From positions 62,001-126,000 of the forward strand of contig JASHNU010000086.1 of assembly GCA_030041475.1 (NCBI GenBank): a stretch of DNA of 64,000 bases, in the 5' to 3' direction. Below are positions 2,420 through 57,392 of this stretch, piece after piece; position 1 is the first letter of the stretch, and each line of letters begins with the position of its first letter. The notes beneath the pieces are model-generated. The model ran no database searches. It saw nothing but the letters and a program-made list of their open reading frames with translations, and had not been told where the DNA came from. Source of the stretch: Candidatus Sulfotelmatobacter sp. GTDB taxonomy: Bacteria; Acidobacteriota; Terriglobia; Terriglobales; Acidobacteriaceae. The position numbers were made by a program, and so were the translations under genes.

Positions 2420-5104
2420 ATGACGTGGCCCATGATCGGCCGCACGATTTCGCACTACCACATCCTCGAAAAGCTCGGCGGCGGAGGTATGGGCATCGTG
2501 TATAAGGCCGAAGACACGCGCCTGCACCGCATCGTCGCTCTGAAATTTCTCCCCGAAGACACGGCTCAGGACGCCGCTGCCCTCGAGCGTTTCCGCCGCG
2601 AAGCCCAGGCCGCGTCCTCGTTGAACCACCCCAACATCTGCACGATTTACGACATCGGCGAAGAGGACGGCTCCGCCTACATCGTCATGGAGTTTATCGA
2701 CGGCCAGACGCTGAAGCACCGCATTATGGGTAAGCCCATGCGACTCGGCGAGCTTCTCGACGTGGCCATCGCCATCGCCGACGCTTTGGCTGCCGCGCAT
2801 GCCCGCGGCATCGTGCATCGCGACATCAAACCCGCGAACATTTTCATCAGCCGCACCGGGCAGACCAAGGTTCTCGATTTCGGCCTCGCTAAATACACCG
2901 CCGAGCAGCATCACGGGCGCGACAATGGCCAGACCAGTTCCATGCCCACCGCCGCCGATCCGCTGGTGCTTACCAGCCCCGGTACCGCAGTCGGCACCGT
3001 CGCCTACATGTCGCCCGAGCAGGCCATGGGCGAAGAACTCGACGGCCGCACCGATCTGTTCTCTCTCGGCATCGTCCTCTACGAAATGGCCACCGGCCGC
3101 ATGCCGTTTTCCGGTAACACCACGGCCGCGGTTTTCGACGCCATTCTGCATCGCACTCCCACGGCCGCGATCAAGCTGAATGGCCAGTTGCCTCCGCGCC
3201 TGGAAACCATCCTCGAAAAAGCTCTCGAAAAGGATCCGAAGCTGCGTTACCAGGCCGCATCCGATTTCCGCGTGGACTTGCAGCGCCTCAAGCGCGAATC
3301 GGACTCACACGCAGCGGCGCAGCCGCTCGAAGCCGAACCGCAAGCCGCGCCTTCCGGCTCCTCCTCTTCGGTCGCTGTTCACGCTGGAACTGCGCCAGCA
3401 ATAGCGCCGCCTTCAACGAAAAAGACCTGGATTCCGCTCGCCGCACTTAGCCTGATTGCCCTGGTCCTCATCGCCGCCGCCTACTTCGCCGGCGAACGCG
3501 AAGGCCTCTCGCACAGCATCACTCCACCCACCTACCGCCAACTCACCTTCCGTGGTGGGACCATCCGCATGGCCCGCTTCGCTCCCGACGGCAAGACCAT
3601 CGTTTACAGCGCTGCCTGGGAAGGCAATCCCGTCGAGCTCTACCTCACCAATCCCCAGAGCCCCGAATCGCGGCCCTACGGGCTGCCCAAGGCCGAAGTG
3701 CTTTCCATCTCCAAAGACGGAGAAATCGCCGTCCTCCTCAACAGCCACAACGTCGATCCCTACATCAACGTCGGCACGCTCGGCCGCGTTCCTCTCGGCG
3801 GCGGCGCGCCCCGCGAAGTCCTCGAAAATGTGGAGTGGGCTGACTGGTCGCCCGATGGCGCCAATTTCGCCGTGGTTCGCCAGCTGGCTGGCCAGAGCCG
3901 CGTGGAATTTCCCATCGGAAAGGTTCTCTACCAGACCGGCGGCTGGATCAGTCATGCGCGCATTTCGCCCGATGGACAAAGGGTCGCCTTCATCGAACAT
4001 CCCGTTCGCCGCGACGATGCCGGCGTTATCGCGGTCGTCGATCTTGCCGGCAATAAGAAAACTCTCTCCACCGGCTGGGAGACTGCCTGGGGCCTCGGTT
4101 GGTCGCCGAAGGGTGACGAGATCTGGTTTTCCAGTACCCGGCTTGGATACGGCCGTTATCTCTCGTCTGTAACTTTGTCGGGCAAAGAACGGCTCCTCGC
4201 CCGCGAGCCCGGCACGCTCACGCTCCAGGATGTCGCTCGCGATGGCCGCCTGCTGGTTACGCGTGACGTCCCCCGCGTCGGCATGGTTGGCGGCACACAA
4301 GGCAGTTCCAAGGAGCGCGATCTGTCCTGGATGGATTGGTCCGCGCCCAAAGATCTGTCCGCCGACGGCAAAACTCTCTTGTTCGGCGAGTCAGGGGAAG
4401 GCGGAGGCGAAAATTACACCGTTTATGTGCGTGAAACGGATGGTTCTCCCGCCATCCGGTTAGGCGAGGGCACAGGCTTGGCGCTCTCTGCCGACAAAAA
4501 ATGGGCGATCTCCGGCCTGCCCAAGCCGCCCATCCAGCTTTTTCTGCTCCCCACCGGGGCGGGAGAATCGCGGACTCTCACCCATGACAATATCAATCAT
4601 GTGTGGGTTCGCTGGTTTCCCGACGGCCAGCGAATTTTGTTCGCCGGCGATGAGCCCGGCAAAGGCACCCGCCTTTATATCCAGGACATCAACGGCGGCG
4701 CGGCCCGGCCCATTAGCAGTGAAGGCGTCAACGCGAGCCTGTTTTCCATTTCGCCCGATGGCAAGCAGGTCGTTATGGTCCCGCCCGATCAGAAACCAGC
4801 TTTGCTCCCCATTGAAGGTGGCGACCCGCGCACCATCCCCGGCCTCGATGTCGGCGACGCTCCCATCTGCTGGTCCGCCGACGGCCGTTCGATTTTCGTC
4901 TACCATCTCGGCGAAGTCCCGGCTCGCGTCTTTAAATTCGACCTCGCCACTGGCCACAAGCAACCGTGGAAGGATCTCCTTCCTCCCGACGTCTCCGGCG
5001 TCACCGACGTCAGCGCCATCTTCATCACTCCCGACGGCCAGAACTACGTCTACGAGTACGGCCGCACACTTTCCGATCTCTATCTCGTCAACGACGTGAA
5101 GTAG
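2420..5104 (+). CDS. Serine/threonine protein kinase with C-terminal TolB/WD40-like beta-propeller
   Basis: ORF opens at 2393, likely start 2420 or 2432; LGGGGMGIVYKAED, IVHRDIKPANIF, VLDFGLAK kinase motifs, single TM (WIPLAALSLIALVLIAAAYFAG), repeated SPDG-type propeller blades. Confidence 0.9.
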   Translation: MTWPMIGRTISHYHILEKLGGGGMGIVYKAEDTRLHRIVALKFLPEDTAQDAAALERFRREAQAASSLNHPNICTIYDIGEEDGSAYIVMEFIDGQTLKHRIMGKPMRLGELLDVAIAIADALAAAHARGIVHRDIKPANIFISRTGQTKVLDFGLAKYTAEQHHGRDNGQTSSMPTAADPLVLTSPGTAVGTVAYMSPEQAMGEELDGRTDLFSLGIVLYEMATGRMPFSGNTTAAVFDAILHRTPTAAIKLNGQLPPRLETILEKALEKDPKLRYQAASDFRVDLQRLKRESDSHAAAQPLEAEPQAAPSGSSSSVAVHAGTAPAIAPPSTKKTWIPLAALSLIALVLIAAAYFAGEREGLSHSITPPTYRQLTFRGGTIRMARFAPDGKTIVYSAAWEGNPVELYLTNPQSPESRPYGLPKAEVLSISKDGEIAVLLNSHNVDPYINVGTLGRVPLGGGAPREVLENVEWADWSPDGANFAVVRQLAGQSRVEFPIGKVLYQTGGWISHARISPDGQRVAFIEHPVRRDDAGVIAVVDLAGNKKTLSTGWETAWGLGWSPKGDEIWFSSTRLGYGRYLSSVTLSGKERLLAREPGTLTLQDVARDGRLLVTRDVPRVGMVGGTQGSSKERDLSWMDWSAPKDLSADGKTLLFGESGEGGGENYTVYVRETDGSPAIRLGEGTGLALSADKKWAISGLPKPPIQLFLLPTGAGESRTLTHDNINHVWVRWFPDGQRILFAGDEPGKGTRLYIQDINGGAARPISSEGVNASLFSISPDGKQVVMVPPDQKPALLPIEGGDPRTIPGLDVGDAPICWSADGRSIFVYHLGEVPARVFKFDLATGHKQPWKDLLPPDVSGVTDVSAIFITPDGQNYVYEYGRTLSDLYLVNDVK

Positions 5105-46574: not shown

Positions 46575-46684
46575 GAAACCACAACCGCCGAGGGCCCCGA
46601 GAAGGCCGGCGGATTTTCGCAGTGGGCCGAGCTTTGCAGCCAGCGCCGGATCTTCCGCAGCCGCGGAGCGGCGGAATCGGAAAG

Positions 46685-46739
46685 CCCGGCACGGCAGTGC
46701 CGGGTACGGCCGGGAAAAGGGAGCGAGTCCCGTCGGGAC
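46685..46739. repeat. REP-like hairpins downstream of the transposase gene
   Basis: CCCGGCAC-GGCA-GTGCCGGG (46685-46704) and GTCCC-GTC-GGGAC (46727-46739). Confidence 0.8.
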
Positions 46740-47239: not shown

Positions 47240-47285
47240 CCCGGCGCTTCCGCGCCGGGCTTTCACATCCCGCCGCTTGGGCGGC
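47240..47285. repeat. REP-like hairpin pair upstream of the transposase gene
   Basis: CCCGGCGC-TTCC-GCGCCGGG then CTTTCACATCCC and GCCGC-TTGG-GCGGC. Confidence 0.85.
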
Positions 47286-47401
47286 TGGACCTTCGGCGTA
47301 CCGGAAATGTGTCTCCATGGAGGTGTTCCACGTAAGAGCGGTCTTGGTCTGTGACGAACGAACAAGGATTTGCACAAAACGCCGTCTAAAAGAGGAAGGC
47401 C

Positions 47402-56703: not shown

Positions 56704-57303
56704 CTAGTGCCCGGGCACAGCGTTCGCCGTCCTGACCGGCAGCGCGCAGACCGCGCCTTCGCTGAAGTTTTCTCCCTCAATGCCGAGGGCGTGTGAGAAA
56801 CGCGCGCGGTAGTTCTCCCACGCGATGGCCGAGGTCAGCTCGACGAGTTGGGCTTCGTTGAAGTGCTCGCGCAAGCGAGAGAACAGCGCATCGGGAACTT
56901 CCACCGGAGTCTCGGTCATCGCGTCAGCATATTCGAGCACGAGTTTCTCCAGCTCTGAAAAGCGGAAATCGGTTCTGTAGTGATTCAGATTGGCGATCTG
57001 TTCGGCGGTAACTCCACTTTTTCTGCCCACGGCAGACCCGATGTCGATTCAAAAAGGACAGCCCACCAGCGTGGCCACGCGTAGCTCGGCGAGTCCCTTC
57101 AGTTTGTGACTAACAAGGTGACTGCCCATTTGCGACTGCTCCATCTGCAGATATCCCCAAAAAAGCTTTGGATGGTGTGCCGTGACCTGGATGGGCATGA
57201 TGACCCGGCCGAGCCGCCGCCGCGTCATAGAATAGACCAAGGATTTGAACAATCGAACCAGTGGGCCACCTTGATTGTTGGCCGCTCCGGAAATGCGCGC
57301 CAT
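56704..57303 (-). CDS. Carboxymuconolactone decarboxylase (CMD/AhpD-like) family protein with in-frame TGA: candidate selenoprotein (or nonsense pseudogene)
   Basis: 57049..57303 and 56704..57030 ORFs are in the same frame, interrupted only by TGA at 57049-57051: ELRVATLVGCPF-(TGA)-IDIGSAVGRKSGVTAEQIANL; CMD homologs normally read CPFC here. Confidence 0.75.
57022..57036 (-). promoter_or_regulatory. Candidate bacterial SECIS hairpin downstream of the in-frame TGA
   Basis: UCUGCC-GUG-GGCAGA, apical loop begins 19 nt after the UGA on the minus strand. Confidence 0.45.
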
Positions 57304-57392
57304 GGGGATCTCCTCATCAGTTTGGATTCACTCAATCTGATTCTCGGACGACGCGGCGCGCTTCATTTGTTCGTTGCTTTACTGGAGTCGCT

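Follow-up and report, generated by a model that had tools for sequence, protein, structure and literature searches.

In the window analysed here, which is the whole stretch of 64,000 nucleotides from the genome of a soil Acidobacteriota bacterium, Candidatus Sulfotelmatobacter (contig JASHNU010000086.1), the UGA at codon 85 of a minus-strand gene is almost certainly decoded as selenocysteine (Sec). This reading is as well established as sequence alone allows, because it is supported jointly by the conservation of the TGA, the Sec machinery of the genome, a hairpin conforming to the published model, the covariation within that hairpin, codons that are confined to the Sec forms, and an Ala at position +6. 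The best explanation overall, and a very probable one, is that the product of this gene is a small redox protein, all-helical and CMD/AhpD-like, with Sec at residue 85 (Sec85). Since standard gene calling cuts this CMD/AhpD-like gene in two, many soil bacteria are likely to harbour a conserved redox enzyme that is overlooked or wrongly annotated.

Reading frame and selenocysteine machinery

An earlier note on this DNA had described two minus-strand ORFs as one frame broken only by the TGA at 57049-57051, and both the coordinates and the sequence are as it stated. When this TGA, the sole internal stop, is read as a residue, a single frame of 199 residues runs from an ATG to a TAG stop, with the context LRVATLVGCPF-U-IDIGSAVGRKSGV (Table 1). 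The TGA occupies the second redox position of C82-P-F-U85, turning CxxC into CxxU inside a CMD/AhpD-like domain, and Pfam CMD (PF02627) covers residues 45-126 including the TGA position (32.3 bits against a cut-off of 23). The GTG at 57030, from which the downstream 'ORF' was called, is the Val codon forming the loop of the SECIS hairpin, and this 'ORF' is without independent basis. Purine-rich motifs similar to the one ahead of the ATG are found 5' of the ATG in most orthologues.

Table 1. Features of the candidate selenoprotein gene, in window coordinates
Feature	Position	Strand	Evidence or detail
Putative CMD/AhpD-like CxxU selenoprotein gene, 199 residues	56704..57303	-	ATG at 57303, TAG at 56706-56704; Pfam CMD; AlphaFold2
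In-frame TGA, residue 85, predicted to be read as selenocysteine	57049..57051	-	TGA in 68/80 relatives, Cys codon in 11, TAA/TAG in none
TGT, Cys82, putative resolving partner in CxxU	57058..57060	-	Invariant in alignment A2 and in all 79 Sec/Cys forms
Bacterial SECIS-like hairpin	57022..57036	-	Stem TCTGCC 57036-57031 and GGCAGA 57027-57022; loop GTG 57030-57028
GAGGAG, likely ribosome-binding site	57310..57315	-	Purine-rich motif before ATG

The source assembly of the window (4.63 Mb, 99.6% complete) contains all the components that the earlier note had proposed to seek, namely a tRNA-Sec with anticodon TCA (66.5 bits), SelB (350 bits), SelA (561 bits) and SelD (above its cut-off). The selD gene of the same genome (G000, contig 112, 40124-41092; L021, around 2085-2100) is itself split by an in-frame TGA, whose context A-A-G-U-A-S-K was read directly from the DNA; it is a selenoprotein candidate of a well-known kind, and brings the candidate selenoprotein genes of the genome to at least two. 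Moreover, SelA is present in the genomes with a TGA-bearing homologue, with one exception found in a genome that is 54% complete; correspondingly, SelA has no match in 16 related genomes, of which a single one (54% complete) has a TGA-bearing homologue among the matches listed.

Conservation of the TGA and of the hairpin behind it

The first homologue search covered 151 related genomes. As to the conservation in close relatives that had been called for, all 12 of 12 same-genus orthologues (68-83% identity) have TGA at the same column, and nearly all further homologues at 34-60% identity have it as well; a distant and paralogue-like homologue (L055) has TGC. In a second, independent search of named genomes, only the protein half after the TGA served as the query, and the search was therefore blind to the Sec codon. 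Its 80 loci have 68 TGA, 10 TGC, 1 TGT and 1 TCG at the Sec column, which is the alternation between TGA and Cys codons that was being sought, and among these 80 relatives neither TAA nor TAG occurs there; the locus with TCG (L142), which reads CPCS, seems to have suffered damage to its frame at this place. By record labels, the Sec forms spread over about 10 phyla, namely Acidobacteriota, Myxococcota, Planctomycetota, Chloroflexota, Actinomycetota, Gemmatimonadota, Rokuibacteriota, Binatota, Fidelibacterota and Pseudomonadota, and the tree of Sec and Cys forms requires three changes between the two. Among named genomes, the nearest relatives are MAGs of Acidobacteriota, and several of these bear the title Candidatus Sulfotelmatobacter. 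Because the TGA is kept across so many independently assembled genomes, the alternative of a single base error, that is, of a misread TGC, is ruled out. Residues 3' of the TGA are strongly conserved too.

Two further loci deserve description. In a same-genus genome (G006), a decayed gene copy (L047) is broken across the CxxU site by two TAGs together with a frame shift, so gene loss is possible within the genus. A groundwater Planctomycetota MAG (L133) carries two tandem CMD-U gene copies, at 2090-2644 and 2758-3315.

Behind the TGA come 12 nt and then the hairpin TCTGCC-GTG-GGCAGA (57036-57022). The bacterial SECIS (bSECIS) model of PMC13188914 has a loop of 3-9 nt with a G within its first two positions, a stem of 4-16 bp, a UGA-to-loop spacing of 16-37 nt and an MFE of -7.5 or lower. 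The hairpin agrees with this model in its 3-nt loop with G first, its 6-bp stem and its 18 nt from TGA to loop, and its MFE is -10.9 kcal/mol for the 42-nt region and -7.4 for the bare 15-nt hairpin. A lone bSECIS-like hairpin is weak evidence, because one of -7.4 kcal/mol or better is found with 7.7% of all TGAs in the window; single sequences also give weak folding z-scores, and the window hairpin by itself was thus rejected as evidence. Further selenoproteins in the window were likewise rejected, since none of the 14 other TGA sites passing a loose frame-plus-hairpin filter was judged protein-like.

It is the comparative signal that strongly carries the case for a putative SECIS element. 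In an alignment of 60 distinct sequences, 93% of the cells pair, 27 cells are altered on both sides in a compensatory manner as compared with 6.9 in shuffles (0 of 500 shuffles reach as high), and sliding the partner strand abolishes the pairing. Moreover, all five core pairs stand at the fixed position in 67 of the 68 Sec forms and in no Cys form.

The codons after the TGA are constrained in the same region. While TCT makes up 5% of the Ser codons and AGA and AGG 2% each of the Arg codons in neighbouring genes, Ser +5 is coded by TCT in 64/68 Sec forms and position +9 by AGA or AGG in 64/68, as against 0/11 Cys forms in both cases (Fisher test, P ~1.5e-10 each, with the kinship of the sequences ignored). 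The Cys forms still keep Ser +5 (10/11) and Arg +9 (9/11) with other codons, so that nature itself supplies a clean control for the function of the SECIS, with the same residues written differently in the two forms. In the three Sec forms where +5 is TCG (L146, L153, L160), CGA or CGG at +9 compensates for it. In addition, no other testable stretch of five codons in the gene is as strongly conserved at synonymous positions as codons +4 to +8. As for Ala +6, it is present in all 68 Sec forms versus 1 of the 11 Cys forms; the hairpin needs GC at this codon, and therefore the protein conservation after Sec is partly imposed by the RNA. The SECIS apparently forces this Ala, a case of RNA structure dictating protein sequence.

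Considering these results, two other readings of the TGA have to be weighed. It might be a true stop, leaving a pseudogene or an N-terminal product of 84 residues, perhaps accompanied by a separate protein from GTG 57030, as the two genes from standard gene calling and the decayed same-genus copy with its two TAGs and frame shift, by which loss is seen to occur, would suggest. We hold this to be very improbable, for TGA persists at one column in most relatives with Cys as the sole established alternative and no other stop codon, the residues beyond it are strongly conserved, the proposed second start is the codon of the SECIS loop, and the read-through product forms a single confident domain in the AlphaFold2 model. 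Alternatively, the UGA might be read through by a suppressor tRNA (Trp or Cys) or by leaky termination, which alone would account for the conserved downstream half; yet such a reading has hardly any chance against the full Sec machinery in the genome, the occurrence of Cys and never Trp in each of the 11 forms that lack TGA and have an intact site, the confinement of the SECIS codons to TGA forms, and the use of TGA as a normal terminator in relatives as well.

We thus retain selenocysteine decoding. The earlier note had proposed that the TGA is recoded as Sec within CxxU and is no random nonsense mutation, and had suggested looking for a bacterial SECIS after it; the proposal is upheld by the conserved column, the machinery, and a 6-bp SECIS-like hairpin that fits the published model (PMC13188914) with both covariation and synonymous constraint. 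By what is known of selenoprotein synthesis, this hairpin would be recognised by SelB carrying Sec-tRNA(Sec), and the complex there would cause Sec to be inserted in place of termination.

Fold, active site and probable chemistry

For the read-through product, AlphaFold2 run on the alignment predicts an all-helical domain with a mean pLDDT of 89.9 and a pTM of 0.85. The PDB folds nearest to this model are the debrominase Bmp8, PA0269, other peroxidase-related proteins and Atu0492, and the best PDB matches by sequence are the AhpD-like proteins 2gmy and 2ijc. The proton relay of AhpD-like proteins is made up of Glu, Cys, X, Cys and His (PMC3141380). In the alignment, the canonical relay Glu and His are absent from the window protein, with Gly70 and Gly89 at their positions. 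Accordingly, the label 'CMD/AhpD' given by the earlier note stands for the CMD domain, the AhpD-like fold and the CxxU motif, and fails for the canonical relay residues, and therefore 'CMD/AhpD-like CxxU selenoprotein' is a safer name than 'AhpD'. The position of the relay His is Gly also in 10/11 Cys forms of the subfamily, so its loss is independent of Sec, and an explanation by the lower pKa of Sec was rejected on this ground. The missing Glu and His weaken a direct AhpD-type peroxidase mechanism and put the chemistry of the CxxU subfamily in question. Among the other residues, Asp +2 from Sec (Asp87) does not vary in any of the 79 Sec/Cys forms tallied, and neither Glu119 nor Glu163 varies in alignment A2. 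In a separate observation, a more distant AhpD-like homologue (L054, 1663-1665) has CEYU with a relay-type His kept (CEYULSSH); Sec is thus also found in a canonical-looking branch, where L055 has Cys.

By analogy with the superfamily, the protein is probably a peroxidase or a thiol-disulfide oxidoreductase. The substrate, either oxidised or electrophilic, would be attacked by the selenolate of Sec85, the best candidates being hydroperoxides and disulfides. Cys82 would then resolve Sec85 by forming a selenenylsulfide with it, after which a thiol reductant of the cell would recycle the Sec85/Cys82 pair. It seems unlikely to us that the protein is instead a reductive dehalogenase dependent on selenium or some other specialised enzyme outside the peroxidases and disulfide oxidoreductases. 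In favour of this reading, Bmp8 (6ohi) is the closest PDB fold by E-value (E 1e-6, TM ~0.75), the A2 profile finds Bmp8 by sequence (6e-14), and the AhpD relay residues are missing with the invariant Asp87 near their positions; however, the fold is common to many AhpD-like proteins with similar scores, the sequence identity to Bmp8 is low, 2gmy and 2ijc are better matched by sequence, and the presence in about 10 phyla suggests a general role. It is likewise doubtful, though conceivable, that GCPFU-xD forms a distinct Sec-dominant family across these phyla, which would have lost the relay, use Asp87 instead and perform non-peroxide chemistry, for example a deiodinase-like reductive dehalogenation resembling that of Bmp8, with selenium as the difference.

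Regarding the gene neighbourhood, no conserved operon partner was found nearby beyond the genus. Synteny with RelA, an SDR-like epimerase, DUF885 and RDD is limited to the genus, where at least two relatives carry a gene for an amino-acid permease between DUF885 and the CMD/AhpD-like gene. Elsewhere in the window, two Acido-Lenti-1 RNA matches (RF01687) exceed the gathering score, at 46659-46704 (-) and 47240-47286 (+), on opposite strands and about 540 bases apart.

Relation to known proteins and family models

Among proteins of known structure, PA0269 (2ijc, 2o4d, 7xw1) and Atu0492 (2gmy) agree with the window protein in their helical fold, with TM scores of 0.82-0.91 by target length, and in the position of CxxC, but they have Cys where the window protein has Sec; moreover, PA0269 has the relay residues Glu36 and His55 (PMC3141380), whereas the window protein has Gly at both positions. 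The debrominase Bmp8 (6ohi) shares the fold and the CxxC position as well, at 17% identity and with Cys for Sec, and dehalogenation by the window protein is putative.

As for the family models, the nearest curated one is NCBIfam NF053654 (GroundWater_YciW, YciW-related (seleno)protein), which matches residues 1-176 with E 4e-38. The window protein reaches 131 bits and the six relatives tested reach 95-132 bits, all below the cut-off of 310, and the subfamily, as judged by the members tested, therefore falls outside the model as curated. Against TIGR01926 (peroxidase-related enzymes) the score is 30.5 bits, below the cut-off of 81.8. In short, a Sec-dominant subfamily is, for the members tested, not reached by the present NCBI models at their cut-offs.

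With the AhpD-like (COG2128/YciW) CxxU proteins of the Sargasso Sea and later surveys, the window protein shares the superfamily, the CxxU motif and a bacterial SECIS directly downstream; in the survey passages describing them no placement in Acidobacteriota was noticed, and the GCPFU subfamily is compared with them by description. The CMD domain-containing CxxU selenoprotein (PF02627; PMC1088965) has the same Pfam domain and the same motif, and is represented by only four metagenomic sequences in that survey, with which the comparison is again by description. As the earlier note had stated, such proteins are known from surveys: AhpD-like (COG2128/YciW) and CMD-domain CxxU selenoproteins have been published since 2005 (PMC1088965, PMC1794560, PMC9312934, PMC13188914). 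The CxxU kind is already known, and to it the window gene adds a member of a Sec-dominant subfamily.
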